64,000 nucleotides of DNA from Bryum argenteum (lineage: Eukaryota; Streptophyta; Bryopsida; Bryales; Bryaceae). Positions 16,451 to 50,275 of this stretch are shown here, piece after piece (the first letter of the stretch is position 1; each line of letters opens with the position of its first letter). The notes under the pieces are model-generated. The model searched no databases, had not been told where the DNA came from, and worked only from the letters and a program-made list of their open reading frames with translations. The translations under genes and the position numbers were made by a program. Where the stretch lies: the NCBI GenBank assembly GCA_037043015.1, contig CM073321.1:1989001-2053000 (forward strand), read 5' to 3'.

Positions 16451-16481
16451 ACTTTGAATTGTTGCCTCTCGTAGTTGTCTT

Positions 16482-17897: not shown

Positions 17898-18033
17898 ATT
17901 GTTCAGCCACAAGAAAAAAAAATGCAAAAAAAGGGGTCAGTTATCAAGAGGGGACTCCGAGGAGCGCAGTCGACATGGAAAACCACAGCGACCAGGGCGC
18001 ACACCAGAGTGAAGAGAAATGAGCCCCCGGTCG

Positions 18034-18360
18034 GCTATTTATGCCGATCGGGGCCGGTCGGCATTCGTCCGTTCGCCCCGGCCGTCCGATCTCGGTCGGC
18101 AGCGGTCGATTCCGCCATCGGTCGGCCTGGATCGGTCGGCCAATCCGATGCCCGCAATGGCGACCGATCCAGGCCGCCCGATCGGCCGACAGATCCGTCG
18201 CGGCCGTCGGATCCGGCCGGTCCATCGCGGCCGACCGATTCACTGCGGCCGACGGATCCGACGGCGGCCGTCCGACGGGGTCGCGAGGGCGGTCGCTGGC
18301 CGTCCGATGCGGTCGCCGGCCTCCAAGGCGGTCGGCCGTCCCCCCGCCCGGTCGGCAGGT
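18034..18360 (-). promoter_or_regulatory. CGGTCGG-rich array and TATA-like box upstream of the repeat-rich gene
   Basis: Read on the minus strand, a GC-rich array of CGGTCGG/CCGATCGG units ends at CATAAATAG (18,043-18,035). This is followed by CCGACCGGGGGCTCATTTC and then TCTTCACTC, closely like the start-site region of the kinase-like gene (GACCGACCGGCCTCC...). A 22-base T run at 18,369-18,390 closes the array. Confidence 0.65.
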
Positions 18361-20715: not shown

Positions 20716-20877
20716 GGTCATGTGGCCCAAAGTTGAGTCATATAGCCTCATAGATTACGAGATCATAATACGTTAGTACACAAGAGAATTTACGAAATTT
20801 CATCATTTCCAGATTGAAGTGAAAATTCATATAACAAAGCTACTGCAATTATGAAATCTCCAAGTAAACCATAAACC

Positions 20878-20920
20878 CAAATCCTAAACCCTAAACCCTA
20901 AACCACTAAACCCTATCCGT
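20878..20920. repeat. Short interstitial plant-type telomere motif
   Basis: AACCCTAAACCCTAAACC gives three to four imperfect copies of CCCTAAA. It supports a plant source; such short tracts are common in plant non-coding DNA. Confidence 0.6.
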
Positions 20921-21103
20921 GAATGAAGAATATATAGCATTTCACAAATCAACATAGGATTCCTTTTTTCATTGTGTAATAATCACTGAGAATCTAATAA
21001 CAAAAATTTGAGAGGGATTAAAATTTAAAAAGGATCCTATGAAATTTTGAAAGATTTCAGTAATACATTGGAAACTAAGAATTAAAAAAAAAAAAAACCC
21101 AAG

Positions 21104-21290
21104 CGGCCGGCTCGATGGCGATGTACGATCGGTCAATCTGGGCCGCTCGTGCCCGGTCGACCGATCTGAGGGACCGCATGAGCGGCCTACCGACCGACCA
21201 GGCGACCGGGGACCGGCCCGGAGACCGACCGGGCGGCCTGCGGTCGGCCTGGCGACCGACCGGTCGACTATCCGTCGGTCGGCCCGCGTA
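21104..21290 (+). promoter_or_regulatory. Orphan CGGTCGG-rich array
   Basis: The composition and core motif match the other four arrays of the hAT. A pyrimidine-rich, leader-like stretch (TACCTCCTTCCCCCTCCTC) follows, but I see neither a TATA box nor an open gene downstream. It may be the relic of a lost fifth cargo gene. Confidence 0.5.
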
Positions 21291-21387
21291 CCTCCTTCCC
21301 CCTCCTCTTCTTGCCTCTCCCCAAAACTCCCCGTTTCCTCAACTTTTCTCACTTCCCTGCATTGCATATTTGCATTTCTATATTTAG

Positions 21388-22860
21388 CGTCTCGCGTCCA
21401 CGTGGCGTCTAAATCAGGGTAGGGAATGTTCTGACAAGGGAATGTCGAGAAGATCTCTTTGTCAGAAACAAGAATGTTTTACGACAAAGATACTCTAGGC
21501 TCTAAATAATTCTATAATAAGGGACTCTTTACAAGAGGAGTCAAGGCCAACATATCTCCCATGCCAATTCCCCCATTTGTGAAGGTGTTGGGAGTTGGTG
21601 CCCATTTCTAGAAGGAAAACGAAGGTTATGGGGCCAATTCTTATTATTAGCGAGAGTCCATGTTTTAGATTTGTTCTCATTGATTTTATTTCTTAAAAAT
21701 ATTCTTTCTTAATTTGAATCAAGAAAACGCTTTTAGGCCATCAATTGACATTCATTTCTTGAATGTCCCAACTTTTGTCAAAAATTGATCCATTCTCACA
21801 ACGAGATGTTCTCATGTATTGGCCCCATTAATGGCTTGGCCCCTATTGTGCACTTTGAGGTGGCCCTAAATCCTCTCATATCACGTTCGAGACTTTTTAG
21901 CTATTCCTTGATGAGAGTATACTTATGTCTAACATTGGAGAGATCTAAGTATATATTAAATGTAGGTGAGCATGTGTGAGTAATTTGTTTTCATAACTTT
22001 GGTATTACCGTATTAGTCAATATTTAAACTTCCTATTTAGCCCTTAAGTTGTCCACATTTTATGGTCTATATTCTTTGATGTGCATTTAGAAATAACTTC
22101 ATCGTTGTGTATCTAATTTAGTAGTACTTATTATTAAAAAACATTGTACTTAAACAACTAATTCTATTATTGGCTATTTTTGTTGGACAGCCTTGAACTA
22201 TGCTAAGAGTATATTTATATCCTAGTACATATAATTGTGCTTAATTTGCACATATTCTCTTTAAATAATTATTTGTAGCATTTTTCTTAGTGTATTTATT
22301 TGAGTAATTATTTATTTACCTCTTATAAAGGTAATAGAAATATAGTTCTATTGTTTTCTATTTTGTGATCATAAATTAAGAGAAGTAAAAAGCGTTACAA
22401 ATAAATTTATGAAAATATCGCACCCTATAAGTTTTCAACATATGGCAATAATGGCATCAACTTATAAAGTTATAATCATATTTGATCTTGTTCACATATA
22501 GTACTTCTATTTTATGTTAAAAGAAGTTGATTATTCTTATATTAGAAACTTCGATTGATTGATTAGGGAATAGAATGTTTTGAATAGCCATCGCTTTTTC
22601 ATTTAGAGTATATTGTGGATAAAATCACTTGTGGGATAGGATTTAAGGTTTATGGTCTAGGATTTATTAATTTTTTTCTGGCTAATATTTTTATTTTTCC
22701 ATATCCAATACATTATTTTACAAACCTTTGTAGGCTAATTCCTTTATTATATATTGGACATGTTTTAGTCTCATCCCGGATGTTGGTTCTGAACTCGGGT
22801 CCCCTCTGAAATGAAAAGAATTAAATAAATAATATATATACACTATACGGTAAAGATAGA
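21388..22860. other. AT-rich, no gene recognised
   Basis: This holds one arm of the 300-bp duplication and chance ORFs only. Confidence 0.5.
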
Positions 22861-23155
22861 GCGGTTTTTGCTAAAAACATATTTAGAGGTAAAGTCACTC
22901 TACATAAATAGCGGTTTTTGCTAAAAACATATTTAGAGGTAAAGTCACTCTACATAAATAGCGGTTTTTGCTAAAAACATATTTAGAGGTAAAGTCACTC
23001 TACATAAATAGCGGTTTTTGCTAAAAACATAGTTAGAGGTAAAGTCACTTTACATAAATAGCGATTTAAGGCTAAAAATTTATTTAGAGGTAAACTAGTT
23101 CTATATAAATAGTGGTTCTCTTTAAATACATATTTAGAGGTAAAGCAAATCAGTT
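22861..23155. repeat. 50-bp tandem repeat, about six copies
   Basis: The unit starts GCGGTTTTTGCTAAAAACAT and contains TTTAGAGGTAAAGTCACT. Starts are at 22,861, 22,911, 22,961 and 23,011, followed by two diverged copies from about 23,061 and 23,112. The first three are identical, so the expansion is recent. Confidence 0.95.
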
Positions 23156-23159
23156 CTAC

Positions 23160-24370
23160 TTTGTGTGCTAGAACTATAAATCAAAAAGTAAATACATAAA
23201 TATACATACTATACATGTATATAGTAAATATTATATTTATTATATATTCAACCATAATACAATACAATTATAATATAAATTATATATAATAAATACCTTC
23301 ATATACATATTCCACTTTGAAAATAGAAAATACATACATAAATATATATATTCTAATTTATTAATACATAGTATATACATAAATATACACATCCTACTTT
23401 AAATATAAATAGTTTAAATACATGAAGAGTTAGATTTCTCTAATTGATCTATTGATAAGATTCGTTTTTAGAAATAGGAAAGTAAAAGACTAGAGAAAGA
23501 CTTTTAGGTGGATATATAAACTCGTGGGTAAGAAGGTAGAGACTATTTTTTGTTGTGAGTTCTTTGGTTATATTTATATACAATTGTTATATTCGATATG
23601 AAAATTGGAGTTCTTATCTATCTATCTTGTTGAAGAACAATAATTACCAGTTTATAATTATCCTATTAGTATAAGAAATTCGTTCCAAGGGAGACGGTTA
23701 AGTAGGAACTTTTAAGCAACTAGGTCTAATTTTTAAAAAAAACCTAAAACAAACCTAAAAAAAACAACTTCAAATTGGTAGAGAAAGTTTACACAATTTG
23801 GGAAGAAAGTTTTATCCACATATCTTTTTTCTTGAGATCTATCTCACGTTTATTTACATGCGCTTCTAACGTTGGTAATTGTATTTTCTAATTCAAAATC
23901 ACTCAAAACATAGAATATGGTACAGAGGGCGTTTATTTAGTGTCCATTGAGGATGCCCTAATACACATACTGTTGTAAGTCATGTTGATAAAAGTTTGAT
24001 TCATAGAGCCTCATAGATTGCGAGATGATAATGTATTAGTACACAAGAGAATTTACGAAATTTCATCATTTTCAGATTGAAGTGAAATTCATAACAAGTT
24101 GGTTTTGAGGGGTTTTGGCACTTTTTACGGCCACTTTATATTAGAGGCCATTTGAAGTTGGGCACATTTGGAGTTGAGCCCACTTGGACTTAAAGTGGGC
24201 CTTAACTTTAGCTGTACTTTACAAAGTGGGTCATAGAGTGGATCTTACAATATAAAGTCCTAATGCCCACTTCGAGGGCCCAAATTTAAAATTTTAGAGA
24301 GAGTTAGATTCTCATTGGTTGATGCCTAGGGTTTGTAAACAGGCCCAAGAAATTTTTGGGTTAGGGTTAA
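23160..24370. other. AT-rich, no gene recognised
   Basis: This is low-complexity AT sequence plus the third duplicated segment. Confidence 0.5.
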
Positions 24371-24374
24371 GAGC

Positions 24375-24690
24375 GGCGGCCGGCGGCCGGTCCGCCAGGC
24401 CCGGCGTGCGAAGGTTCGGCGGTCAGGGTCGGTCGGCCAGACCCGGGCGGTCCGGGCGATCAGTCGGCCGGTCCCGAATGGCCCGACGGCCGGTCCGGTG
24501 GATCGGTCGGCAGGTCTGGGGGATCGGTTGGCAGGTCCGGGGGGTCGGTCGGCAGGTCCGGGGGGTCGGTCGGCAGGTCCGGGGGACCGGTCGGCCGGTC
24601 CAGCGATCGGTCGGCCGGTCCGGGGCTTCCGACCGCCAGGCCCGGTCGGCGGTTCGGTCGGCCGGTCCGGCATGAGGGCACTATAAAGGG
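24375..24690 (+). promoter_or_regulatory. CGGTCGG-rich array and TATA box upstream of the RING gene
   Basis: About five 20-bp units (GGTCGGTCGGCAGGTCCGGG) lie at 24,500-24,590 within a longer GC array. TATAAAG (24,682-24,688) is followed by GGCCGTCCGGCTTC and a pyrimidine-rich leader with ACCACTTTCTCTCC, matching the kinase-gene leader (TTCCTCCACTTCTTTTCTCC). Confidence 0.7.
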
Positions 24691-24861
24691 CCGTCCGGCT
24701 TCATTTTGCACCACTTTCTCTCCTCATGGTAACCCAATTCGAATGTTCTCCAGTTGCTAAGGCGCCTGCTGCATTTTAGTTGGAGAGGAGAAGGGGGTCA
24801 GTTTTTTTTCACATTTGTTGCGGCTACTTCGTCCCGTGGATCCTTCGGTGATACTTGTACG

Positions 24862-27800
24862 ATGACGTCGACTGAGAACGTGAACACGAGTATGGAGGTG
24901 GAGAATTCGATGATATCAGCAGAGGCGCCTAAGAAGAGGAATAAACAAAAAAGTGCAACTCATGGGCTAAATTGGGAGATTTTAGAGAATGAAGACATTA
25001 AAGCGGAACGCGGTTGGGAACTGGAGGTGATGGAGTATTGGACCGCTCAAATTTGCAAGAAATATGTGAAGATGTTTCACATTGGCAAACTTTGGCCTAA
25101 AGAATGTCATCTGATTCATACCAGAACTTTTCTTGCAACCCGGCAACATGCAAGGATGATCACTTTATCCACCGTGCGGAGGAAGTATGGCGGGCCTTGT
25201 TCGGGATCGTGCCAAAACAAAAGGGTACTTTTGTTACCAATTGTTGGCAATGGTGTATCTTTGAGTTGATCTTTGCAGCGGAAGATAAATTGGAGCACGT
25301 ACCAAACTAATACCGAACATCCGCTTCAATTGAGAGGAAGCGAAGCATATCCTGTTTGCTTTGATCCACAATCTGCCTTGACAAAGCATATTTTGGAGCT
25401 TTTGAGGAAAAAAAAAAAAAGGTCGGGAGGAGGATACAACGGATGATGAGAATGTCGTTACAAAGGATAAAGACATTCCTCTTGCCACGGATGGTCTATC
25501 AAACGAACAATCTTGATTGATAGGCTTCGGGATGTAAAAGCGATTGGAGAACGATCCACTGGAAGAGGCGAATGCGGTGCAAGATCGGTGGGGGACTTAG
25601 AGAATGTAGTGGAAGAGGTACTCTCCCCTCTCATTCCAGATAACCCTATTATTCCCAATGGCCTAAATTTGACCTTCTCGAATCCAAAATCGAATGAGGC
25701 AAGGCCAAGTAAACCAATGGAAACAACATCCATGCCAGATTCCATTACTCCGCTGATGGAGAAGGATTGGATGTCAAATTTCGAAGAGATATATGAAGGA
25801 GTACCAAGCAACAAGAAACCGAGAGAGTTTCTCACTTATTGTGAAGAAATGGCAAAGATCTTATACGAGGGTTCGGCTCGAGATGGTGAGACGAAGTTGA
25901 AGTGGGAAGAGACCAAAAAAATTACAATATTGGAAGCTGGGGCCGTTATGAAAATCGAGACTGAAGTTCTTGCTGCTATGGCTCCACAGGTTTTAGAAAT
26001 GTCTCAAACTTTTGCCCTAATGATGCCTCGAATGCTAGACGCAGCTATAGACTACGAGAAGTTATCAGAGAAATTTCTCCCGCTTATGAAAGCAAGGATA
26101 AAGGATTTGGAGGATCTTTCTAGTCTTGAAGCGAAGTATTCCGTAGCAATTGCCGTGATTGAAAAGGTGGTTTATGATTTCAAACTTAATGGATATGAGT
26201 GCAAAAAATCCCCGTACTACTGCAAACTCATGGAGGAAGCGATGAACATTTTGAATGCTCCCGAAGAAGGTGATGTGGAAGATCTTCCCCTAAACCCAAA
26301 AGATATTTCTCCAATTTCAAAAATTGAAGAAAGGATCGAAAGGGAAGGTGATCTTTTCCCATCTAATTATGATGGGAATAATAAGAGTGATGGCCCGGAG
26401 ATGAAAGGTACTCCATCACGCGAGCCTGGGCCTACTGAGACAGCAGAGGACATTCATGAGAAGGAAGTACGGTTCAATACGCAGGATAAAGGAAAACAAA
26501 TCATCAATTTGGAAGATGATACGGAATCGGAGGACAATGGAAGGAGAGGCGTGCGTGTAGAGGATGATACACATTCAAAGGGAAAAGCTTGCCTACATAA
26601 TCAATGTCCTAAAGAAACATTGGAAATGCAATTGGAGGCAATGATGAAGCAGAGAGATGAGGCACGAGCTGAACTAGAATCCATACGAATGGCATTAAGA
26701 AATGTGGATTATACACCACGCGAAGAGAACATATTGCCTTGGTTGGCTTGGGTTCACCGACTTCAAGATAGGGAGGCCATGGTTTCAAAGGCACAACATG
26801 ATCTGAAGAAGATCGCCGCCAAATCATATGGTTCGAGTGAACATGTGAATACATCATTGGAGGAATTTAAAAAATACGAAAGATTACGAGAACACGAACC
26901 TACTAAGGTCACTATTTGGGGTGATGTGGAGGAGATGATGAAGTGAACAAATTTCAATCGGATGGGAAAAGATGATGATATTGATTGGAGTTTGGAAGTG
27001 GCAGAAGGATGGGTGCCATACAACTCATTCTCATCGCATTTTGTGGAATCAAATCGAAATATAGTTTACACATGCGACCCCCGACAATACTGAAGGAAAA
27101 ATGTGGCATGTGCCGATATCATTTCGGTCCAGAAGGAGTGTACACACTGGGCCAATGTGGCCATAACTTTCATGTTACTTGCATAGCAAGCGCTGCCCGG
27201 GGAAAATCATCATGTCCTATATGTCATTCTCCAATTAGCACGAGATTGTACGAAGTGATGGGGATGCGCGATGTCATGCCACCTGGGCACGAGTTCAACC
27301 GATGGAATCTCCCTTTGGATCAACTTCCAAAGAAACTTCACAACTTTCGTGAGTGGGGGAAAGCACTTGAATGGGATAGTTCAACATCAAAACACCAGCT
27401 CCTCAAGTAGTATGTAGGCGAGACAGATCCATTGCTTTGGATGACACGTGACTACGAGGTGGAGATTAGGGCGCGAGATATTGAAGACAGCGAGCAACGA
27501 GAGATGTTTTGCCGCAACTTTGGAGGACATTGGAGTACTGAACACAATCGTTTCTTCCGATTCCCTCCAAAGAGAGTGGAAAAGGGAGAAGATGGTTTGT
27601 GGCATGAGGTAACAAGTGACATTGAGTTTGGAGGGGAGTACAAGAAGTACGATGATAGGCCGATTGGAAGGGTTTTAGTCCTAGCGAAATTGGAAGAGGC
27701 CGCACACTTACGGATTTCAACGAAGGAGGAATCTTTCAAAGACGCAGACTGTACTTTCTGGGAGGCGGTAGAGAAATTTGAGTGGCGCATTAAGAACATC

Positions 27801-28130
27801 ATTACTCATTGGACGACAATGATCAAGGACCCCAAGCCGGAGTTATTGGTGTCTATCACAGCAGAGGACTCCTTTGTGAAGGATGTGGTGGGACGAATCG
27901 AGGAGGCCATGAAAATCTTCCGTTCCAAAAATGCTAACCTACCCAAGAAACGAAAAAGGGATGATGGTAATGAGAGCGACGAGAGTTGGATGTCGGGCAA
28001 CAACAGAGAAATTGCTGCAGTGGATCAAGAATACGATGAGGGCGGTAGAATTGCTAGACCAAGCCAAAGACCCCGGACTCGTAGTATAGCACATACGATT
28101 GATACAGAAGAGCATTTAGATGCGATGTAA
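24862..28130 (+). pseudogene. RING-finger cargo gene, frameshifted
   Basis: I prefer the ATG at 24,862 (MTSTENVNTSMEVENSM), about 175 bp after the TATA box. The N-terminus resembles the repeat-rich gene at 17.9 kb. Four frames are used in turn (breaks near 25,100, at the A run at 25,409-25,420, near 25,510, and at the C run at 27,078-27,082), each equal to one missing base. The middle (25,513-26,946) is acidic and helical, with a coiled coil around LEMQLEAMMKQRDEARAELE. A RING-H2-like domain follows: CGMCRYHFGPEGVYTLGQCG, then HNFHVTCIASAARGKSSCPI-C. A TGA (26,944-26,946) and a TAG (27,408-27,410) also interrupt it. The C-terminus holds KKRKRDDGNESDESW, a likely nuclear signal. RING proteins are usually ubiquitin ligases; targets are unknown. 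Confidence 0.6.
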
Positions 28131-28504
28131 TAGAAATCCAATAGAAGTGTAGACGGTTTAGAACGGTTATAGTTCCCGGAATAGAGTCGCATACCATTTT
28201 GGATTTGTAATGCATGGTTTTTGTAATGAAGTTTTTTATTTCTTATGATGTGATAGTCTTTTGTTGACTATTCACCAACATTTTCAGACAAAATAAAGTA
28301 CGAACACATCAACTGTTTGGTAATAAAGTTTCACGAGCTATACTACCCGAAACATACACGAAGTATGCTAGACCTCTACTACGTGTCTGAGCATGTAATT
28401 AATTTCTATTCATCCACATCGGTGGGAATTGCATAATCGCTGTCTCCTTTGACTTCAGCACCGCTAGATCCCGTAGGGTCATCTTCGAAATCAGTACTAA
28501 CTTC
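28131..28504. other. Convergent 3' region
   Basis: The RING gene (+) and the hAT transposase (-) converge here. AATAAA-type signals occur on both strands near 28,230-28,295. Confidence 0.4.
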
Positions 28505-31304
28505 TTATTTGATTCTTCTTTTGTGACTTCCCGGATGAATGATCTTAAATTTTCCCGCATTCTCAATGGCATCAAGGGGATTCTTCGGTTTATCATGAAG
28601 AAACGGAAGCATTGGAGCTTTACGTTTCGTCATAACTCTTGAAGGCTCCTTCTTCCGTAGCCCTGAACCTCCTGGAAGGTTTTTGTATCCCAATTGAAGA
28701 AGCGGTACATCCGAGTCACTAGAGATTCCGCCGGAATTGGTACGTACTGTTCGGGGTCGCACTTGATTTGAAAGTGACACCAAACGTTTGGAAGATTTCT
28801 CCATCACTGTAGGGACCTCTACAGCACATTTTTGAAATAGAGACCGAGAGGCAACAGCAGGCAACGCAGGTTCGTCCCTAGTGGCGGACGTCATATTTCT
28901 CGTTATTGGATCAAACGTTACTGTACGGCCATGAGTATCATCCCCCACGATTTTCACATTCAGAACAACATTCTCGTCCGTATTTGGAGTTAGTCCGGTA
29001 CGAGGGGTATTATGACAAGTGACTTTGTCGGTATCCTTTTGAAACCGTGGTAAATGAGCTAGGGGCAACAATTCATCTGGATCATCCGCCTCAGCATCAT
29101 CGTCAACAAAGTCATACGTGGTGTTCGGGACGTTCAAAGCATCTTGCAAGCTCATAGCGGGGATGCTATTGAGGTCATCTTCTAGGTCCTCTAAAGCGTG
29201 ATCCGCAAAGCCTTCACCAATTGAGTTATGGGGGGTTTCTTCATCCTCGGAGTCACGTACGTCATCATCCTCTACATCCAAGTTCTCCGAGTACCACCTC
29301 TTCTCATCCGTTAACTTTGCGTTTGCAAGTAACTTTGAGTTGGTGTATACAAAGACCAAGGCATCAGCTCTTTCCGGTAGCAACCGATTCCGCTTCCTAT
29401 CGTGAACGAAAGAGTAACTGCTCCAATTGCGTTCGCACGCCAACGATGACACTGTTTGTGCTAGGATTTGCTTTGCAATCGGAGCAAGGAGTTTTCCAAC
29501 AAACCCTTCAATTTCCCACCAAACAAAGGGAGAACATTTCGACTCATTAGAATCCAACATCTCATGAAATGGTGCACTCCTCATTCGAAATGCCATATAT
29601 TCATTCGCCACATCATGATAAGTGCCCGGAGCACATAGAGTTTTTAGAACACGCCTGCACCCATGCCAGACCTCAGTATCATCTGCTAACTTTTTGTCAT
29701 GTAGTAAATAAGGATTCAAAAGTGCACCAGCACAATGCAGATCTGTTGTCATCATCTTTTTCCTTGCGTAAAAGTTCTCCTTCGCAATGTCCGCTAAATC
29801 CGTCGGGAGAGAAAATGGTTCTGTAGATAGCGTCAGTACATGCTTCTCGAGCTGACGAACGATATGCAAAGCCTTGCCCGTACAAGGCTCCTTGCCGTCG
29901 ATTTCCCGAAGAGCATACACTACTGGGGCCACCATATCTCGGAAGTTTGTACAACGCTTCCAGAAACCGTCATCCAAAACCACTTTTCTTACGTTGCGGG
30001 ACTCCAGGAATTTATCTAGCTGATAGAGACTTCTTCGAGGCATATGACAACCACTGGGGATCTACAACAGTTTGCTCCAAAGATTCCCGAACCTGCAATA
30101 AGCGATCTATCATTATAAAATTGCACGCAAATCTTGTTTTCCCAGGCATCAATAGGCTAAACCTTGTCTCGTGTTTACGAAACAGGACTAAAGGCATTTG
30201 ACGATTTTTAATGAACTTGACCAAGCCCTTGGCCTTTTCCAAAGTTTCTTTCACCCATGACGCCTTTCCCCAATCTTCCAACAACAAATCCATCGCATGC
30301 GTGGCGCATCCCTGAATGAATATATGGGGATAATCCTCAACGACTAATCGAGAGGCATTAATCATTACAGAAGCGTTGTCCGTGCAGACTTGGACAACGT
30401 TCTCGGGGCCAACTTGTTTGATGAACTTAACCATGATAGAGGCCATATACATTGCTGTCTTTTCTTTGCCAGTAGTATCGACGGCGCCAAGAAAAAGCTC
30501 TCCAGCAGGAGTCACTAGCATTGCATTCACAAGAGGGCGACTACTCACAGATAACCATCCATCCATGGCTAAAGTTCCCCCGAACTTCCGAAGGCTCTCC
30601 TTGAGTCTACTATCTAGTTTTCCTTCTAGATCACTTTTTACTTGTCCCAACAACTTTGTCCAAATGTCATGGTAAGAAGGAGGGACATATGGTTTTTGGA
30701 AAGACGCAGTTTTCATTACAGCTTCCTTGAAGGCTGGATTCCGTGCTACAGCAAACGGTATGTTTGCTTCATAGAAAAACTTTGCCCAAAGTATGTCTAG
30801 TTCCCGCCTATCCGCTTCAGCAAAACCATCTTCAATCACAGATTGATTCATCGCCCTATTGATATGCCCACCAACCCTCACTTGTCCCGCAAAGTTAGGA
30901 ACGGCGGAGATTGATCCAACTAAAGGTGTTGATGGAATCGAAGGGGTAGCTTGAGAAGATCCCACGCAAGAGTCTCCACGAGTGGACCTTAGCGTGCCAA
31001 CATTCGGAACTTCTGATGACGATAAGATTGAATGTGCACCGCTCATTTCTCCATTATGTGGAGGGAACCGCCCGTCACATCTTCGAAATAAATCCATCAC
31101 TCGTGTGTTCAATTTTGGACAAAGCATTACTGTATTAAGGCGGACCCCATGCTTGCCTTCATAGCCAAGGTGACTGAGCTGCCGTTCTAGCCTCTTGCTC
31201 ATAACCTTATGACAGAGATTGCATTGGACCGTTGGGGTCGTGGTAGGTTGGCCTTGTACTTCATGAACATCAGTGAACCAAGGTGAGGATGATTTGTTGG
31301 CCAT
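28505..31304 (-). pseudogene. hAT transposase, one frame break
   Basis: I choose the ATG at 31,304 (AAAATGGCC context); the ORF opens slightly earlier at a GTG. A BED-like zinc finger lies near residue 30 (QCNLCHKVMSKRLERQLSHL). A DUF659-type core follows: LAMDGWLSVSSRPLVNAML (first Asp), VQVCTDNASVMINASRLV (second Asp) and FIQGCATHAMDLLLEDW. Near 30,012-30,043 the frame shifts (one extra or two missing bases) and continues to a hAT C-terminal dimerisation region, TVSSLACERNWSSYSFVHDR, with the conserved E-R-x-W/F-S. The remaining 280 residues are acidic and basic low complexity. All expected catalytic acids are visible. It is the obvious mobiliser of the 19.26-kb element, though this copy needs one frame correction. 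A TATA box lies about 200 bp upstream. Confidence 0.85.
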
Positions 31305-31499
31305 TTTGATAGGTAACACACCTCAAAATGAACAAACGTGGTAGTAGATATGTAAAAAAAAATGTCAAGAGTTCGTAAACGAACTCTGCACTTCCGAACT
31401 CAATAGGTACCAAGCAACGGACACATAACATAAAGTTATGCAGCTCAGAGACGTTGGGTCGCATTCACAATTCGGAAGTGAATTGAGGCCTTGTGTCTC

Positions 31500-31890
31500 T
31501 TCTCTTATATACCTTCAACCCTGAATTTGACCATTGAAATTTGAATTTTGACCGTTGAAATTTGACCGGTCGGGCCTTCGTAGGCGGCCGACCTCGCCGG
31601 TCGCCAAAGCGGTCGGCGGCCGACCTCGCCGGTCGTCACCCCGGTCGGCGGCCGACTCGCCGGTCGTCACCCCGGTCGGCGGCCGACCTCGACAGTAGTC
31701 ACCCCGGTCGGCGGCCGACCTCGCCGGTCCGCACACCGGTCGGCCTAGGAAACGCCGTCCCGCGCCACCGGCGGCTTGGTCGAAGCGTCGGACGGGGTGC
31801 GGTCGGCCGGTCAAACGGTCGGACGGGGTGCGGTCGGTGTCAGTCAAAGGATCGGACGGTGCGGTCGGCCACCGGCCGGACGGTAATTTA
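31500..31890 (-). promoter_or_regulatory. CGGTCGG-rich array and TATA box of the hAT transposase gene
   Basis: On the minus strand a GC array (about four 34-bp units with CGGCCGACCTCGCCGGTC) is followed by repeated TTGAAATTTGA-type sequence and TATATAAG at 31,511-31,503. The leader then runs about 200 bp to the ATG. The array lies 110-440 bp from the right end of the element. Confidence 0.65.
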
Positions 31891-32000
31891 CCCTGGTAGA
31901 TTATAAAAACCCGTTATGTCACCGAGAGGTCCTAGGGGCTGAGGACGACCGGACCATGGTCGACCGGTCGCCCCCTGGTCCGGTCGTCCTGACAACCTTG

Positions 32001-32025: not shown

Positions 32026-32426
32026 ACCATTTAGCTCGAGTCGAGCTAAATGGGCATACGACTCCGTTGCAGGTTAAGCCCATTTAGCTCGACTCGAGCT
32101 AAATGTGCTTCGCTGCTACGATTGATCTGCAAGCCTATTTAGCTCGAGTCGAGCTAAATGGGTCTGACCTTGTTTAAGGTCCGTGACCATTTAGCTCGAC
32201 TCGAGCTAAATGGGCTTACTGCCCTGTAGCAGGTCAAGTTCATTTAGCTCGACTCGAGCTAAATGGGCTTGCACTGAATCAGAGCAGTAAGCCCATTTAG
32301 CTCGACTCGAGCTAAGTAGGCTTGCATTTAATGAGAGCAGTACGCCCATTTAGCTTGAGTCGAGCTAAATGCGCTTGACCTGCTACAGGGCAGTAAGCCC
32401 ATTTAGCTCGAGTCGAGCTAAATGGT
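32026..32426. repeat. Palindrome array, right part (8 copies)
   Basis: Eight copies lie at about 53-bp spacing, with central base C or G. The spacers contain GTAAGCCCATT, GACCTGCTACAGGGCAG and similar pieces that recur in the array at 38.4-39.1 kb. Confidence 0.9.
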
Positions 32427-38194: not shown

Positions 38195-38364
38195 GTAAGT
38201 TGCTACTTCTTGAGTTTTAGGTTTTTGATTCAGTTCCAATTTCGTGGCATTTTCAGTACAATGCAGGGCACAATGCTATGAAATGTTGCTCGCTCAGTAA
38301 TGGAGGTCTTCTGATTTGTGTTTTTCGCGTCGAAATTTGTATTTTTCTGCTCATCTTCAACTTT

Positions 38365-39103
38365 CAGCTCATTTAGCTCGCTGCTCATTTAGCTCGATCC
38401 CCATTTAACTCGATGCCAATTTAGCTCGATGCCAATTTAGCTTCATTAAAGTATTTAATTCTCCAAGACCACCAAGCCCATTTAGCTCGGCTCGAGCTAA
38501 ATGGGCTTGACCTGCACCAAGGCAGTAAGCCCATTTAGCTCGACTCGAGCTAAATAGGCTTACTGCTCTGATTCAAGGTAAGCCCATTTAGCTCGACTCG
38601 AGCTAAGTGGGCCTGACATCGCATGAGGTCCGTGACCATTTAGCTCGAGTCGAGCTAAATGGGCCTGATATCGAATGAGGTCCGTGACTGCACTGTGACA
38701 GGGCAAGCTCATTTAGCTCGACCCGAGCTAAATCGTCACGGACCTCATACGAGGTCAGGCTCATTTAGCTCGAGTCGAACTAAATGGGCTTGCACTGAAT
38801 CAGAGCTGTAAGCTCATTTAGCTCGAATCGAGCTAAATGGGCTTACTGCAGTGTGGCAAAGCAAGCCCATTTAGCTCGACTCGAGCTAAATGGTCACGGA
38901 CCTTATACGATGTCAGGCCCATTTAGCTCTAGTCGAGCTAAATGGGCTTACTTTGAATCAGAGCAGTAAGCCCATTTAGTTCGAGTCGAGCTAAATGGGC
39001 TTACTACCCTGTAGCAGGTCAAGCCCATTTAGCTCGACTCGAGCTAAATGGGCCCGACCTTGTTTGAGGTCCGGGACCATTTAGCTCGAGTCGAGCTAAA
39101 TGA
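38365..39103. repeat. Palindrome array in intron 1 of the plus-strand gene (12 copies plus half-sites)
   Basis: Five consecutive left half-sites (CATTTAGCTCG-type, 38,365-38,445) are followed by twelve palindromes at about 53 bp from 38,477 to 39,103. The central base is A, C, G or T (for example AATCG at 38,812 and GCTCG at 38,477), while the 10-bp arms are nearly invariant. The spacers often carry their own inverted repeat, such as GACCTCATACGAGGTC. The array lies between the donor at 38,195 and the acceptor at 39,218-39,219, so it would be spliced out. Confidence 0.9.
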
Positions 39104-39221
39104 TCTCGCCACTTAATCTAAACATGTTAAAGTTCTTTCCGGTTTGATCGTCAAGATAATGACGATGTTCTACTGCCCCCATGAATCTTACATTGTGATT
39201 CTCATTTTTTGAATGACAGTG

Positions 39222-42200
39222 ATGCCGAGAACCAAACAAACTGCCAGAATTGTTCAAATGGCTGCGAATGCACCTGCCGAGCCTGAAATCGACATGGAAG
39301 TGGAGCAGCAAGAGTTTGTTCCCGAGGTAATACTCTACTTTATATCGATGTTCCCATCTGCTGTGTCCATTTAGCTCGAATCGAGCTAATTCGCTTTCGG
39401 TTATTTTGTTATCCACAGGTCACTTATAACATGCAAGCCCTGGAGGGATTCCTTGCAGGAGTTCAATTCCATGCCCCAGACGATTCGCTTGTAGCTATTG
39501 CTGTGGACGCGCAATGGGGGAGGTTGTGGACCCCAAGACGAATTCCATCAAGTCTTGGTCGATTCGTCCGATGAACAAGACCCATTTCTTCTTCTATCAA
39601 CAATCGGGGTCTCACGGGGCATTTTTGCCTCTATGTCTTGATGCCTTCATCGAACTTGTTACTTATGAAGACAAATTGCTCCTGATCAAGTTCGAAGCAG
39701 TGGAGGTCGAAGGTTTCGTCTTCACTATTGTATTTCCCCCCAATGAAGTCCGTTTCTCCCACGACTTCATCCGCAATTATATGGTCGGCAAGGTGGATGC
39801 CACTCAGCTTCATCATATCGACACGAGATTGGAGCCCAATGTGTCTTTGCCGAAAGCCTTCGTCAGATCGTACATTCCATACACTGCGCAGATCTGGAAG
39901 GCTCAGTCTGATTTCGAGACTGCAAAGAAGAAAGGCAAGGCTCCGATGAAACGGTCCGGGAGTCTACTGTTACAGGCTCCATCTGAGAATGCTCCGTCGG
40001 GTCTAGGCACTCCAGAGGGAAGTCTAGGCGTGCAGGAAACGAAGCGGCCAAACCCGATCTCATCCAGCTCTGGCTCCAGGAGGAGCAAATCCTCCGGCAG
40101 CGCATTTACGTACATTAATCCTACAATGAACGTGGCTGTCTCGGAGAAGGAGATCAAGTATGAGGAAGCGACGAAGTCTCTGAAGGACTATTGGAACAAC
40201 TGTGCAGAGTGTTATGTCTTCGATCGTGACAATCCGCTTGACGTGTCGATCGACCTCCTCGACCCTGCAGAACCAAGGTTTATCGTGCGATCTTTGGAAC
40301 CGGCCGGAATAGCGCATCACAAGAACATTTTGATGAATTCCCTCGATGTTACTTCCAGGCAAACCATCATCATTATGCCGAAGATTAAAGATGAGCCTGA
40401 GATGTGGGATTGGGAAGATCTGGTCCAATCTTGTCGGTTCCGAATTATCGACGGGCAGCACCACGTTGAGGCTGCGAAACAGTTGATTCGTGACAAGAAG
40501 ATCGACGACTCGAAGATCCTTGCCCTTCAAACATGGAAAGCCCATGTTGTGTGGCATTCCGACATTAGCAAGATTCTAGACGTGTCGGCCATGGCGAACA
40601 AGACGAACAATGCTGGGACGTTCATACCTTCCTGGGCAACGAACATCATGGGCGCAAGAAAGGTTTGGGAAGACTATGGCGGCCTTCAAAAACTGAAGAA
40701 GCCGCATCGACGTGAAACACCGGTTGAAGTAGATAACCGGAAGCGTTATGAGGTATGAGATTACTTGTTCTTTTCTTTTTCTAATTGGAGTGGTTTGCAT
40801 TCTCTGTCGACGTTCTTGGGGACGTCGTTTTAGCTCGACTCGAGCTAAAACAGCATAGGTTGTTTCTTAATCGTTTGGCTTTGGTGCAGGCATTCGCGGG
40901 CACTATGGTGAAGAGGTTCATCAAAGATCAACAATAACGCTGAAGGACAAGATCGTCGGACCGTCCGACCTTCGCAACGAGCTCCTCATCATCATCACAT
41001 CTCCGGACGACGTCTACGAGTTGTGAAAGAGGTTCATCACGGACTACGATCTTGGAGAGCCGATCGACCCGACACCGAGCTCCCATTCAATCAAAGCGAA
41101 AGATTGGAAAACCGCCTCAAAGAAGTTCACCTTGAACAGGAGTTCTTCAAGAGAATGGGGCGGCTAGACGCGAGAACCTCGAGGTTGTCGGCGCAGCACT
41201 TGCTGAACGAGACTCCGGATCGAACGTTGCCCTACCCCAAGGTGGCCGTAAGGGAGCCTGCTAAGAAGTACTTCCAGTGTATGAGTGCAAAGCAGTGGGT
41301 CGAGAATCGGAAGAGGAAGAACATTGTCGCGAGGGAATTGCACAACCTCAAGCCCTCGCTAGGTTTGTTCGACTCCGAGTGGCACTTCGACGTCGACAAC
41401 TGGAGGAAATTCAAGGTGGAATACAATCGACTCGTCGACTATGTCCATGCTTCTCTCGGTCCCGGCGACTCGTTCTTCACCCTCTACCGCCAAAAGCGCA
41501 CGAAGAATAGGAGTGCGGCGGAGATTTCGAATATGCGGCCAGTTCTTCAAGAAGTTCCCCGGATGTCAAAGGGACGTTTGAACCTCCCCGCACCGATTGT
41601 TTACACGCGGCTCTTTTACTCTTCCGAATTCAAATTCGGGATTTGGGACAAAAACTACGCCTGGAACCAATCTAGCAAGTGTGATATAGGCTTGATTGAT
41701 TTGCGATCGTCCCAGGTGTGGAAGTAGAGTGGACGACACGGAGAGTCCATACTTCCAAGAATTCCTTGATGTGTGGGCAGACACCGTGACCGATCCTCAC
41801 ATCAAGAATCCCGAGGTTTGGATGTTCATTACCTCCAACGTCGACCGTCACTGCCACGCAGTGGTTTACGTCGACAAGAAGTTGAAGGACGAGTACTCTC
41901 CCAAGGCAGCCAACTACATGCCGGCCAAAGAACGAAGCGCGTTTTCAACGGCATTGCAGAGAAAAAAGCTTCAGAGAAGCACTTGCTCCCCCTCCTCTTC
42001 CTTGTCAAGAAGAGCAACCATGCTCAGAGTGTGTTGGATGCGATACCCTCTGTATTCTACGCTCCAGAGTTGCCCCTCTACTCGAAGTCCGGCGCGTACA
42101 GAGAACACGACCTTGGTCTCAGTAACACCGAGCTGCGATTGGAGTTCTACTGTCGGGTGTTGAAGATGTTTTCATCTCCGGGAGGGAAGTTTTTATCGAT

Positions 42201-44608
42201 TATGGGTGGCACAAAGCCACTGTTGGCTGGGATTGTAAGTACCTCGCACCATTCCTTCAATTGGAACTGCTCATGCTCGTTTAGCTCGACTCGAGCTAAA
42301 CACTCTCATGCTCGTTTAGCTCGACTTGAGCTAAACACTCTCATGCATGTTTAGCTCGATTCGAGCTAAACGGTCTCCTGCTTGTTTAGCTCGAATCGAG
42401 CTAAACGGTCTCATGCTCGTTTAGCTCGAGTCGAGCTAAACAGTCTCATGCTTAAATCTCTTCAATTTGTATTTTGTCCATGGCCTTTTAGCTCGAGTCG
42501 AGCTAATTCTTCTTAGTCTTCTTATAAGTTTCTGTCTCCTTCTAAAACAGATGTGCCAGGCTGAGACATATGTTGTTATTTGCGAGACCGAGAAGGAGGC
42601 AAATGCTGCGACGGACTACCAACATCTAGACTACAACGATATCAACGTCGCAGCATACGTAAATCCGGAAGCTAATCGCGGTCCCAAGCCTTCTGCTGAA
42701 GGGTCGGGGAAGGGAAAGAAGAGGAAGTCGAAGAAGAAGTCCACCCAGCCTGTAAGCGACGACTCTTCAGCTTCTGAGCACGAGCGTGAAGATGAAGGTA
42801 GTCCTTCTTCTCCGGCGGGGATGAATTCCCCCATGGATTCAGCTGTTCGTCTCGTGTCCCCTCCCGCAATTGACTGGGCTGCGGTGGCAATTCCGTCCAG
42901 TACTACTCGTGCTCCCCCTCGTGGTCGTGGTACTGCTCGTGCTCCCCCTCAGGGTCGTGGAAGCGGTCGAGCTCGGTCTTCTGCGTCTCATGGCCGCGGT
43001 ACAGCACGCGCCCCTCCGCGCAAATCTACCAAGCGTTCTTCTTCTGAGGCGCGAGCTGGAGAGGCTTCTTGGTCCAGAAGCGCTACTGTGCCCCAAGCAC
43101 AGACGGCGCTCGAAGCCAACTATGGCGCCTGCAATGTCGTCAGGGACATTGAGAGCCCCCCCCCCTCCAGCGCTTGCGTCGTGGTCGACCATCGGAGGAG
43201 GATTTAGCTCGAGTCGAGCTAAACCAGCAGTCTCCTGGGGTCGTCGATCTTGGGGCCGCTGGGACTCCGGTTCAGCACAGGGTTCCACCCCTGGGGTTTC
43301 GAAGGGAGGTTCGTTCAAAGAACTCGAACGATCGCATCTACCGGGATCTCTTTGGCGAAGACGATGTAGAACCTGGGCAAGAGCGTGTGCCACGGGATGC
43401 ATCATCATCCGACAGATCTGACTCGTCAGACAATGACGATGTTGAGGGTTCGAGCAATGGCGACGGGGACGACGATGACCAAGCTGATGATGCTGATCTC
43501 GCGGCCATGACCTTAGTCGACGAGGTGGCTCCTGATCCATCCCAAGAGGAGACTACTTTGGCGCCTCCTCCCCAAGGCCCGCAGAGCGCACCCAGGAGGC
43601 AGATTGAGAAGGGGAAGTACGACAAATGGTTCGTGAAAGGTGTTTGGAAGCCCGAGGACGAGCCGGAGGATACTATAGAAATCCGGTATTACGACTTCTC
43701 GGAGGAGCCTAGTTCTCCAAAGCCTTTGAGGGCTGAGGATGATCCTCTTCTCCCTGTCGTGCCTCTGCTCAGGGAAGAAGGAGAGCCTTCACAACCACCA
43801 GTGAAACTGGAAGTTGTCGCCCCCATGCTCACGAAGGATCAGAAGCGAGCACAGAAGCGGCAAGAGAAGGAGGCTCTGAAGGCTTGCAAGGCAAAGGAAG
43901 AAGCGGAGAGAGAAGCGGAGAGAGAGAAGCAAAGGTTAGCAGATATCGCAGCCGCGAATGCTCGAGTGGACAGATTGGAGTCCACATTCGTGAGCTCTCA
44001 GTTCGAAACCCGCATGGCACTAGGCAAGATGGAGCAGATGTTTCAATCATTCGGAAATATCTTATCCCAACTGCCTAGTTATCCTAAACCCATTGCCTCC
44101 ATCAACCCCGATCAACCTCGCCTCAGCATCTGTGACGCGAGTCCACCAGCCATCGTCGCGCCTCCACAACCTATCATCGTCGCGCCTCCACAACCTCCTA
44201 TTGTTGCTGAACCGGAGATCGCACCCCGCCCCATACCCCTCGAGATTTCGGAGAAGCCGACGAAAGAGGATGAAGTCCCGATTGAGGCAGCGCCGACGCC
44301 GACCCATCACACCTCTGCTGTCGCATTGGGGGAGCATGCAGAAGTTGCTCCTACCCATGACTCTCCCGTGGCTGCTACCGATGTTCCTCCTACCCATGAC
44401 TCTCCCGTGGCTGCAACTGAGACGGCTATAACTTCACTGGTAAATCTAGAGGTTAGTTACTATCATTTCCTTCTCTTTGTCTTTGTGATCATTGATGGTG
44501 ATGGCAGTTGCTCTGCTATTCCCTCATGTCTTGAAGTTTTCACAGTTAGTAATCTTAAAGCCGGCGCTCCTTGTTTGACAGGAGTCCGGCACCGATGGCG
44601 GCGAGTAG
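39222..44608 (+). CDS. Long ParB-like / DNA-methylase-like protein with histone-H3-like N-terminus
   Basis: Proposed exons: 39,220-39,326, 39,419-40,752, 40,890-42,234, 42,551-44,451 and 44,582-44,608; all introns are GT-AG and the four between coding exons join in phase. About 1,570 residues are expected. Exon one begins MPRTKQTARIVQ, matching histone H3 (ARTKQTAR) at seven of eight residues after Met. A ParB/Srx-like region reads VTSRQTIIIMP, then FRIIDGQHHVEAAKQLIRD (GxHR is GQHH here). The next exon ends VLKMFSSPGGKFLSIMGGTK, then PLLAGI|MCQAETYVVICET, resembling the C-terminal motif I region of beta-class DNA methyltransferases, but no DPPY is visible. RG-rich, acidic, coiled-coil and Pro-rich tails follow. 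Frame breaks fall at G5 (39,516), about 40,925, 41,020, 41,700 and 41,950, and at C9-10 (43,156). ParB-methylase fusions are known from prokaryotes and phages. Confidence 0.55.
39370..39390. repeat. Palindrome copy in intron 2
   Basis: The left arm is intact and the central base is A; the right arm is cut short (GCTAATTC). It is within the intron 39,327-39,418. Confidence 0.8.
40829..40849. repeat. Palindrome copy in intron 3
   Basis: Both arms are perfect and the central base is C. The outer flanking pair is T and A, unlike the A/T and G/C pairs in the other arrays. It is within the intron 40,753-40,889. Confidence 0.9.
42276..42508. repeat. Palindrome array in intron 4 (5 copies at 35 bp, plus one)
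   Basis: Five copies lie at about 35-bp spacing with CTCATGCTCG-type spacers. The central bases are C, C (one arm change), T, A and G, and each copy is flanked by G...C instead of A...T. A sixth copy starts at about 42,486. All lie within the intron 42,235-42,550. Confidence 0.9.
43203..43223. repeat. Palindrome copy inside the apparent coding exon
   Basis: Both arms are perfect, central base G. Read through in frame it encodes LARVELN. It lies within 60 bp of the frame break at the C run (43,156-43,165), so the exon structure here may be wrong. Confidence 0.85.
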
Positions 44609-44697
44609 GTCGACGAGTAGTCTCCAAATTATTGGATGTTGTTTCGCTTTTTGTACATAGTACAATTATAATCGTTGTACTTATTGAAACATCATTC

Positions 44698-44703
44698 AAT
44701 AAA
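44698..44703 (+). terminator. AATAAA polyadenylation signal
   Basis: It lies 90 bp after the proposed TAG stop (44,606-44,608) of the long gene. Confidence 0.6.
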
Positions 44704-44741
44704 ATTGAGACTCTTTTATTTCACATCACTTTTTATCTTCA

Positions 44742-46072
44742 GTGAGTCTGCGTCCTTCTCATCACAAGGCCCTAAACTTCGTCCTTTTCTACCAGGCCCC
44801 CCTTCTGAATACCTTGTTCCGTCCGATTGCTTCAAAATCCCCCGCCAACCACCTCATGTTACCTCTGGGTGTGGCGGTTCAGTACCCAATCAGTGCTGGC
44901 AGTTCTTTGCATACTTCAGCATTTCGCAAGGTACACACCCTCTTGTTTTAATACCATTTGCCATTGTTACGTGTTCCCTCAGTGCAGGCAGGACCGTCCA
45001 AACATCCCAAACAGCGTATCTCGCCCGAGCTACCCATTACGCATATCTCCCGCAGTCTTTTACGGTCCAAGCCCAAGTGGTTGAATGTGATGTTGGACGG
45101 GGTTCTATGTTCGATGGCCTCTGTGTCTACCCCAACGCCTGCAGAGTGCCTATCTTTTCCGGATCCCAATAATCCTCCGGTGTTTTCCTCCACCGTCCCA
45201 ACCTTAGTTGCCGGCAGGGTCGTCTACTGTCGTCCCGGGTTGACCGGGTTCCTTTGCTTACTAAATTTGTTTTGCCACATCCACGTCTGGAGTACCCAAG
45301 AGCCTAAGGTTGTCCATGGACTCTGCTGCTTTTTGTTCTCGAAGTCAGACGCTGCCCCTGGACTTGTCTTGGCTTCCAACCAATGCGATAATCTGTTGTT
45401 GAAGAATTACGCATTCGCCAAGTACCCCGGCACGACAAATCCCATCCTCTTAAAATATCCTCGACGGCGGTTGTATCCTAGGAAGGGTGCCAATTTACGG
45501 CAAATCTTGTAATTGGTCCTTCGACGGTTTCAGAGGCTTCCATTACAAGTGACGACTCCAGAACTTTCTCAGAACGAATGCGGGGACGGCTAATCTACTT
45601 TGCTCCGGACGATGCGTCGGCTGTAGACTACACGAAGGAGGACATGGATAATGACGATGATGGTGTAGTAGACAGTCCCCCTATTGAGATTCAACCAATT
45701 ATTGCAACCGGCAATGATCGAATCGGTGTGATGACCTCGGTTGCAGCGGCACCCCAAGGTGAAGCTGTATTACGCAACCCCGTCATCGACGCCCGTGCCT
45801 ATTTAGCTCGATTCGAGCTAAATAGTTCCTTGCCAAATACTGTGGCTCATTGCTCCTTATCTCTTGGGGCAAACACTCGCTTTCATCGAACACGATTTTC
45901 GACTGAGACTCACCGTCTATTACGGAGACGTGCACCGAAGTGTCGTAGAAGTGGTGGGCTTATGGAGATGGACGAACCTGCCTTCTCTAAATACACACGT
46001 AGTGAGGACCCTCTATTCACTAAGAATGATACTTCTGGTGATACCTCGTCTCTGCCACGTCGTAATTGGTAG
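44742..46072 (+). CDS. Third coding stretch of the outer element, product unknown
   Basis: Two protein-like frames are present. One covers 44,958-45,512 (contains PSKHPKQRISPELPITHISR and FAKYPGTTNPILLKYP). The other covers about 45,578-46,072 (MRGRLIYFAPDDASAVDYTK, then acidic). A small intron is possible at about 44,931-44,987 (AAG|GTACAC to TGCAG). A palindrome copy at 45,802 may mark another intron. I recognise no domain. It could be a separate gene, or 3' exons of the long gene by alternative splicing, since a good acceptor (TTTTTATCTTCAG) precedes it. Confidence 0.35.
45802..45822. repeat. Palindrome copy in the third coding stretch
   Basis: Both arms are perfect, central base T; read through it encodes LARFELN. 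It is the rightmost clear copy, about 520 bp inside the element end. Confidence 0.85.
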
Positions 46073-46313: not shown

Positions 46314-46341
46314 ATATTCTCATTATAACGAATTACGTGTT
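46314..46341 (-). repeat. Right terminal inverted repeat of the outer element
   Basis: This is the inverted partner of 8,762-8,789. A degenerate copy of the palindrome half-site (CCATTTAGATCGATTC on the minus strand) lies just inside it, near 46,270-46,285. Confidence 0.85.
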
Positions 46342-48586: not shown

Positions 48587-50230
48587 TCAAATGCGCCTAG
48601 AATGATAAGCAACAAAACATGCCCCCATACACATAGGTTTGTTACAAGTTGGACAATACCATTGCCTTTTGTTGTCACATACCACACACTTTTGCCTCTT
48701 ACGGGTATCTCCAACCCATTTCTATGTGTAATGTAATTTGTTGGGGTTTGGTATTGCTGCATCTACAACCGCGGTTCTTGGGAGCTCACGTGTTGAATAG
48801 CCTGCCACCAACGCATTAGCAACAACCAAATTGAATTTGACATGGCTTAGACACTTCTTACTAGAATGTGCCATATGTGACTTGTAAATGATGTAAGAAT
48901 TCACAAGAGAAGTGTCTAAAATATGGAAGAGGATACGGTGCCACCATTTGTGGTCCTTTCGTTGCACACTGTAGTATCCTCGGAGTTGATCTTGGACATC
49001 TACTCCCCTCATTATTTCTTGATAGTGGATTAATATGGGACTACAAGGCACACAAACAGAATCACCATTATGCCATCTAGAAATATAGACTTGGCCATTA
49101 GCATCCACAGGAGAGAAAGCAGTAGACAATAAGGTCACAGGTTTGTTATCAAATCAACAAACAGCAGCCATTCTACCACTAGCATGCATTCTAAACCACA
49201 ATTGACCCCTACTCCCAAGTCAAGGGTTTATAGTGAGTGCCTGAGGCCAACCAACACGGTTAGATCTACATGTCCCCGTGGCATATATGCCTTTCTGTAA
49301 CAAACACCAAAACAAAGTAGGACTTGTAAAGAAATTGTCACAAGTTACTATGTGACCATTGCCTTCATAGCCACTCATCAGTTGGTTTACAATTTTGAAC
49401 CCCGTAGCGTGGTTATCATCCTCTGAGGTGGATGCACCACAATACACTTCCATACGTTGTAAATACTTAGAGACACTATTAGCCAAGCACCAAATCTTGA
49501 TACCATATTGGGTAGGCTTAGCCTTCATGTATTGCCTAATAGGCGAATACTTCCCCGTGTATGGCACCATCATCTCATCCACTGTCAAGTTCTTCTCAGC
49601 ATCCCACATTTCAGAGCATAGAAGATTGAAATCATTTATGAGCCATTGAGTTTTAGAAAGTTTGCTAAATGATGGGTCCATTTTATCTTGGACTATAGTT
49701 TTATTGTCAACTAAATGCACACATCGCAAGATTGTCTCAAAACGTGTACGACTCATACAATTTACAATCTCGGGGGTTCTCCATACCTTATTGTTTGTAG
49801 ACCAATGTAAGCGTGTTTGTGGGACTTTTTTCAACGCCATCACCATGAGAACTCCAAACCAAGCACGTAATTCGGAGACTACCAAAGGTGTCCACCGAAG
49901 GCCACCTTTGTTTCTCCCAGATTCGCCCACACTTGTAGCATACAAATTAGTTTGCCTACAAATTTTTCTTAGCATGGAAAGAGGCCAAAACAAGGAGAAA
50001 AATTGGAGAGGTTTAGTGCAACCTAGGATGGCTTGGCTAAATCCCTCATGTTCACTTCTAAACTCCACATGTGGCAATTGAGTCAAGGTGGAGTTCCACA
50101 TACTCCCACTAAACCTCTCCTTATCAGACATGTTACAAATTTTTTGATATTCAACATAGCCTAGTCCAAGTTCATTACACATGTCACCTCCACTAAGCAA
50201 CCATTTTTTAGTATTAAGAGTCAAAACCAT
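48587..50230 (-). pseudogene. piggyBac transposase with three premature stops
   Basis: A single 548-codon frame runs from the ATG at 50,230 to the stop at 48,587. It is broken only by TGA (49,220-49,222), TGA (49,154-49,156) and TAG (48,722-48,724). The DDE_Tnp_1_7 motifs are clear: LTVDEMMVPYTGKYSPIRQY (Asp 1), HIVTCDNFFTSPTLFWCLLQ (Asp 2) and, after a stop, FDNKPVTLLST (Asp 3). IMRGVDVQDQLRGYY follows, and the usual C-terminal cysteine-rich domain is complete (CVVCDNKRQWYCPTCNKPMC, then H). I found no convincing TTAA-flanked ends. It is therefore a dead copy with an intact catalytic triad. Confidence 0.85.
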
Positions 50231-50252
50231 AGAATCTAATTTACTAGCTTCA

Positions 50253-50275
50253 CACTAGTAGAAATTTTTTGACCA
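50253..50275 (+). repeat. Possible CACTA terminus
   Basis: CACTAGTAGAAATTTTTTG is typical of CACTA (En/Spm) element ends, but I found no inverted partner in the window. It may be one end of a truncated element. Confidence 0.3.

Follow-up and report, generated by a model that had tools for sequence, protein, structure and literature searches.

A DNA transposon of Bryum argenteum with a gene whose predicted product opens with a histone H3-like tail

The question raised by this locus is why the predicted product of a gene carried on a transposon should open with residues of the histone H3 tail, and what such a tail might do for the element that encodes it. In the window (the whole stretch of 64,000 nucleotides of Bryum argenteum DNA analysed here), positions 39222–39326 of the forward strand translate as MPRTKQTARIVQMAANAPAEPEIDMEVEQQEFVPE and are followed directly by GT, and they are predicted to form the first coding exon of a gene of a terminal inverted repeat (TIR) transposon. 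When M-P-RTKQTAR-I is set against the ARTKQTARK of processed H3, residues 2–8 are identical, Pro is found at position 1 and Ile takes the place of K9. In both of the repeat families described below (family A, to which the window element belongs, and family B) K9 is replaced by the hydrophobic residue Ile, which is followed by V-Q or R-G without a match to S10-T11 of H3, and the match to the tail is limited to its N-terminal side.

The opening MPRTKQTARI given in a preliminary description of this DNA was borne out by this translation, and the in-frame ATG that it reported nine bases 5′ (39213, reading MTV) is also real, being found in 19 of the 20 fetched copies. An AG acceptor is located 3′ of that ATG, at 39218–39219, and splicing at this site, if the acceptor is used, would therefore remove the upstream ATG. 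The corresponding donor, GTAAGTT, occurs at 38195, with 400 nt of CT-rich sequence lacking an ATG located 5′ of it in the window. The leader was examined in 21 sequences (the 20 fetched copies and the window), ten of which possess an exact TTGTAAGTT preceded by 50 nt or more. Seven of these ten, the window among them, have no ATG across the available 103 to 400 nt of leader, the exceptions being L009 and L017 with one ATG each and L011 with seven. The start at MPRTK is supported by this predicted ATG-free leader ending at the donor at 38195. Eighteen of the 20 fetched copies have Pro at position 1, L015 having Ser and L019 Leu instead. A Pro residue following Met makes a free N-terminus more likely, and Met removal would leave P-R-T-K-Q-T-A-R-I as the N-terminus of the protein.

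The family-A element carrying this gene is a TIR transposon spanning 8762–46341, or 37.6 kb in the window copy. Its left (8762–8784, forward strand) and right (46319–46341, reverse strand) TIRs are 23 bp in length with one mismatch each, that of the left being to the common form, and TTAC both precedes the left TIR (8758–8761) and follows the right one, representing a 4-bp target duplication as read by eye. Across the genome 1,084 TIR places were identified with up to two mismatches, against 0 for a reversed control. Perfect 4-bp target site duplications (TSDs) of varying sequence were found in all ten other TIR pairs tested, which were picked from 100 TIR places among the matches listed, had their edges fetched, and span 16–22 kb by coordinates. 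Within the core of the element, a DUF7869 gene and the H3-mimic gene are located on opposite sides. The former (9235–12034, reverse strand), also present in copy L077, is a probable transposase gene with two open frames, of which 9911–12034 matches DUF7869 (PF25273, E 2.3e-43) and 9235–9996 has no Pfam match. A stretch at 12744–32000, which includes a hAT-like gene (28505–31322, reverse strand), is missing from L077 when the two copies are compared; because the DUF7869 side and the palindrome array near 32 kb are adjacent in L077, this stretch probably represents one or more later insertions. The stretch of L077 between base 5126 and its end at 9810 does not match the window. Outside the element, the window also contains a piggyBac-like transposase gene (49220–50254, reverse strand; PF13843, E 1.5e-56), its piggyBac character being read by eye.

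A feature of the element is a palindrome, TTAGCTCGANTCGAGCTAA, of which there are 37 copies in the window (up to two mismatches; 0 expected), all of them inside the element. One array with a spacing of about 80 bp is located upstream of the DUF7869 gene (12279–12703), and a second with a spacing of about 53 bp occurs at 32031–32421, the two being contiguous in L077. From 38195 onward there are 22 palindromes, 21 of which fall within the five predicted introns of the mimic gene and one, the last of the element (45803–45821), in the 3′ part. The gene is on the forward strand. Its predicted 5′UTR intron (38195–39219, GTAAGTT...ACAG) holds 12 palindromes, most at a spacing of about 53 bp (38482–39099), and the first coding exon is followed by a predicted intron with one palindrome (39327–39418; palindrome at 39371). 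The second coding exon (39419–40752) has a frame change between approximately 39500 and 39574 in the window copy and precedes a predicted intron with one palindrome (40753–40889; at 40830), while the third (40890–42234) is broken over several frames in this copy and precedes a predicted intron with six (42235–42550; at 42281–42506). A basic, RG-rich fourth coding exon (42551–43180), a predicted short intron with one palindrome (43181–43230; at 43204) and a probable last coding exon, acidic and then Lys/Glu-rich, complete the gene (43231–44470, the end being approximate). A second H3-like stretch considered in the RG-rich exon 4 of the window, APPRKST, was rejected, since RESTKR or a similar string takes its place in most of the aligned copies.

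The window copy is decayed by frameshifts and stops, and exon 2 of family A contains stops in 10 of the 20 copies in which it is readable. The median dN/dS of this exon was 0.32 over 171 pairs, a value obtained from copies fetched by the motif and with some pairs inflated by frameshifts. With regard to recognisable domains, nothing scored above the curated cut-offs of Pfam and NCBIfam for the mimic protein and its homologues, and no palindrome-binding or other DNA-binding domain was recognised in the mimic protein. Towards its end, exon 2 (window 39430–40755) possesses a DGQHH..AA motif, invariant in the nine sequences aligned, which we take to be reminiscent of DGQHR/ParB-like domains. Of five homologues scanned, one gave DndB with a score below the threshold (E 0.15; 11.5 bits, where the cut-off is 29.1), so that a place among the DndB/DGQHR proteins is not supported. 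An AlphaFold model of exon 2 built from nine sequences was unusable (pLDDT 44.7).

To what extent is the motif kept among copies of the element? In the 258.8-Mb genome RTKQTAR in any codons was found at 81 places, while the reversed pattern occurred at 3. Of the 81, 55 were assigned to family A, 14 to family B and 12 to H3-like sites; the assignment was made from the surrounding sequence at 21, 3 and 8 of these sites, respectively, and from the codons at the remainder. Family A was also sampled independently of the motif, using the 35 bases that follow it (up to three mismatches; 76 copies), a pattern that starts with the Ile codon. The preliminary description had held that loss of the motif from homologues would speak against mimicry. 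Retention proved extensive but partial: exact RTKQTAR was present in 45 of the 76 copies, as well as in family B and in a relative outside the genome (P0010, below), with one or two residues changed in 17 of the 76 and a different motif in the remaining 14, which make up a divergent sub-family. Of these 14 copies, six read PRT[K/R]TTAK, six are one or two changes away from this (one with a stop) and two read ARTRT[S/T]AV; R8 is lost in all of them, and position 4 is Lys in six, Arg in six, Ser in one and Ile in one. Ile follows the motif in 74 of the 76 copies, though the search pattern itself opened with an Ile codon. Among the 62 copies within three mismatches, the motif has 21 synonymous and 19 nonsynonymous changes (15 and 48 possible) and the flank 25 and 47 (23 and 76 possible), indicating a mild excess of constraint on the motif over its flank, an excess that the choice of these 62 copies favours.

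The divergent sub-family (L039–L052) has TTAK- or TSAV-type motifs, yet its next 35 nt are 0 to 3 bases off the search string, and it could represent rapid diversification of the mimic. A search with the divergent-motif pattern gave 34 matches against 15 for the reversed control and is therefore noisy; its 11 matches with up to two mismatches are all on contig C1, as are all 14 of the divergent-motif copies. This contig (44.1 Mb, 17% of the genome) also holds 33 of the 55 exact family-A copies (binomial P ~1e-12) and may be an unusual, TE-rich chromosome, perhaps a sex chromosome.

Family B, a putative transposon described here as a dispersed repeat, has copies such as L006 and L008 that share about 94% identity across most of 3 kb. 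It has 14 exact motif copies by codon type and encodes L-A-RTKQTARI-RGRGPDLVQK..., with Ala at position 1; the codon aligned with the ATG of family A is CTG, and placement of the motif at the N-terminus in B is putative. The next exon of B is 24% identical to window exon 2 over 217 aa (BLASTP E 3e-4, one comparison) and 23% identical to P0003 over 255 aa (E 4e-6), a nine-sequence family-A profile scored 18.4 bits on B, the best of 1000 shuffles reaching 4.6, and hhalign of A against B gave a probability of 56% (E 1.1e-4). On the basis of these BLASTP, profile and hhalign alignments, which cover the second half of exon 2 and leave the first half unaligned, A and B are distant homologues. RTKQTARI is nonetheless identical in the two. 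The RTKQTAR codons differ at 7 nt, all of them synonymous, the Ile codon is ATT in both families, and RTKQTAR(I) is by eye the only part of exon 1 that they have in common. Within B, exon 1 of the lineages L008 and L035 differs after the motif, with synonymous changes only inside it, and among 22 flank-sampled B copies 13 were exact, 7 were changed and 2 had no motif within three mismatches. Since the peptide is identical between two distant families, chance is unlikely, and the motif is almost certainly real. With RTKQTARI identical while exon 2 is only 24% identical, the peptide appears to have been kept by selection. It is also probably a selected mimic of H3, a step taken here with less assurance, and mimicry is its probable function as far as sequence allows this to be judged. 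Downstream of the family-B mimic gene in L029 (6558–7220) is an NLI-interacting-factor-like (FCP1-type) phosphatase domain (PF03031, E 5.9e-14), which may belong to the family-B element.

Outside this genome, a family-A relative was found in the short protein P0010 (MPRTKQTARI, MTVMPRTKQTARI), which reads MTVMPRTKQTARIILMAANAPAGPDVEVNVDAG... and is 64% identical to window exon 1. Eight homologues of exon 2 (54–78% identity) were found in public assemblies, none of which begins with the mimic, and a query joining the mimic to exon 2 yielded no spliced homologue of matching length. No relatives were confirmed in viral contigs, and M-[A/P]-[R/S]-TKQTA-[R/S]-I, in any codons, occurred at 0 places in viral contigs and a prokaryote genome collection. 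The H3 genes of the host are ordinary, with all eight fetched opening with ARTKQTARKSTGGK. The possibility that the motif was captured from one of the host's H3 genes was considered and found no support, as the codons of A and B are no closer to these eight genes than random synonymous codons, the fraction of the latter at least as close to H3 being 1.0 for A and 0.30 for B.

Family B has another palindrome, CATCGGTCGATCGCCCGATG, in the intron after the motif exon; in L029, nine of its 13 matches are in that intron and four elsewhere (up to four mismatches, without a chance estimate). By eye, the palindromes of A (window 38482–45821) and B (L029:547–1262) share the central TCGA end of the half-site, the forms compared being AGCTCGA-N-TCGAGCT and GGTCGATCGACC-like. 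The palindromes look as if they were binding sites that diverged together with the proteins, and the mimic protein may bind those of its own element.

What, then, might the tail do? The reading that we consider best, and put forward tentatively, is that of a TE-encoded H3-tail mimic acting as an anti-silencing factor, on the K9 side of the tail, at its own element. The mimic protein would be brought to the element by the palindrome arrays and would there present an H3 tail with a hydrophobic residue replacing K9. Such a tail could occupy the active site of SUVH-type (SRA-SET) H3K9 methyltransferases as a non-methylatable pseudo-substrate, and H3K9 methylation at the element would be blunted. 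Action as a K9-methyltransferase pseudo-substrate in particular is a possibility that we hold more loosely, drawing on analogy with H3 mutants and with the action of EZHIP on PRC2. It is doubtful whether the full scenario applies, in which an oncohistone-like H3K9I decoy seated on its own palindromes jams SUVH-type enzymes and erases heterochromatin on the element alone. The host has SRA-domain genes, and the frame of one of these, L054, runs into a SET domain as read by eye; together with the ordinary H3 genes, this fits a land plant with SUVH-type H3K9 methyltransferases. An H3 tail becomes a trap for SET enzymes when a hydrophobic residue replaces the target lysine. H3K9M is reported to trap Clr4, and both H3K9M and K9-norleucine bind G9a (PMC5030085). 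In the available part of PMC6513997, H3K27 methylation is lowered by H3K27 with Met or Ile and likewise by EZHIP with Met or Ile. No tests of K9I were found in the open-licence literature, and neither “K9I” nor “isoleucine” occurs in the available text of PMC5030085. Against the K9 reading are the residues after Ile, which are unlike H3, and the divergent sub-family, which lacks R8.

The main rival of the K9I reading is a decoy or recruiter on the K4 side, in which a free P-R-T-K-Q-T-A-R end binds H3K4 readers or an LSD1-type pocket in the manner of a SNAG domain, recruiting or blocking them. Identity to H3 from R2 to R8, K4 being kept in both families, agrees with this, as does the free N-terminus that Pro after Met favours. 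SNAG domains, moreover, mimic H3 tails and recruit LSD1 (PMC12612597, available part). This account would nevertheless leave the shared Ile at position 9 without explanation; the K4 place is taken by Arg, Ser or Ile in 8 of the 14 divergent copies, and Ala1 of H3 is Pro in family A. We regard it as unlikely. The preliminary description had favoured mimicry of the K4 tail, and this is supported in part: mimicry remains probable, the motif being largely retained in homologues, and the Ile at K9 common to A, B, P0010 and nearly all of the flank-sampled copies (sampled with a pattern that opened with the Ile codon) is at least as suggestive of a role on the side of the K9 methyltransferases.

It may also be asked whether conservation of the peptide has nothing to do with histones and reflects localisation, folding or a protein contact, with the likeness to H3 being coincidental. 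The changed motif of the divergent sub-family, the end of the likeness at residue 8 and the lack of any sign of capture from an H3 gene would all sit well with this. An exact seven-residue match to H3 directly after the start, with Ala1 in addition in B, is however improbable under an arbitrary constraint, and this peptide is, by eye, the one part of exon 1 common to both families; a coincidental likeness is judged improbable. That the motif has no present function and is a relic in decaying copies, with the agreement of A and B reflecting slow decay, is very improbable. Frameshifts or stops do mark the window copy and many others, and nonsynonymous motif changes are common (19, with 21 synonymous, among the 62 copies mentioned above). 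Comparing A with B nevertheless largely refutes this account: the two encode the same RTKQTARI, the codons differing synonymously, where exon 2 has fallen to 24% identity over half its length. With a median dN/dS of 0.32, family-A exon 2 is moreover under purifying selection.

Host factors that mimic histone tails are known, as is sequence-specific anti-silencing by the VANDALs of Arabidopsis. Histone-tail mimics have also been reported for viruses. In the open-licence literature, as judged by titles and the openings of abstracts, no report of TE-encoded histone mimicry was found. SNAG domains start with M-P-R-S-F and resemble H3 loosely. SNAG proteins (Snail, GFI1) are similar to the mimic in that a protein N-terminus mimics the H3 tail (PMC12612597, available part), and differ in being host zinc-finger factors, whereas residues 2–8 of the transposon mimic are identical to H3. 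H3K9M shares with it an H3 tail in which K9 is replaced by a hydrophobic residue (PMC5030085, available part), but is a true histone with Met, whereas the mimic is a non-histone protein that has Ile and does not match H3 beyond residue 8. A further comparison is with EZHIP, a non-histone protein with an H3-tail peptide in which a hydrophobic residue replaces the target lysine and in which Ile acts like Met (PMC6513997). EZHIP is an oncohistone-like PRC2 inhibitor of placental mammals, encoded by a host gene and mimicking K27 internally, whereas the present mimic covers H3 residues 2–8 and position 9 at the N-terminus of the product of a transposon gene and is known from sequence. VANDALs are MULE-type elements with TSDs of about 9 bp. 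The element described here does not belong to them, having 23-bp TIRs, 4-bp TSDs (ten of ten pairs) and a DUF7869 gene. There is nevertheless a likeness to VANC, a gene carried in a DNA transposon whose related families have different short motif arrays in non-coding DNA (PMC5735166 and PMC10398659, available parts), a layout also seen here in the family-specific palindrome arrays in the non-coding DNA of A and in the other palindrome of B. The two differ in that palindromes take the place of the 9-base motif of VANC and no Pfam match was accepted here, and also in the H3-like N-terminus, which is present in the mimic protein and of which no mention was found for VANC in the available parts of PMC5735166 and PMC10398659. 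How VANC acts after binding is called an important remaining question in the available part of PMC5735166. If our reading is true, this gene would provide a TE-encoded histone-tail mimic and, with it, an explanation in chemical terms of the way in which silent marks are removed by sequence-specific anti-silencing; a TE protein that links element-specific arrays to an H3 tail without a methylatable K9 would give a concrete and assayable mechanism.
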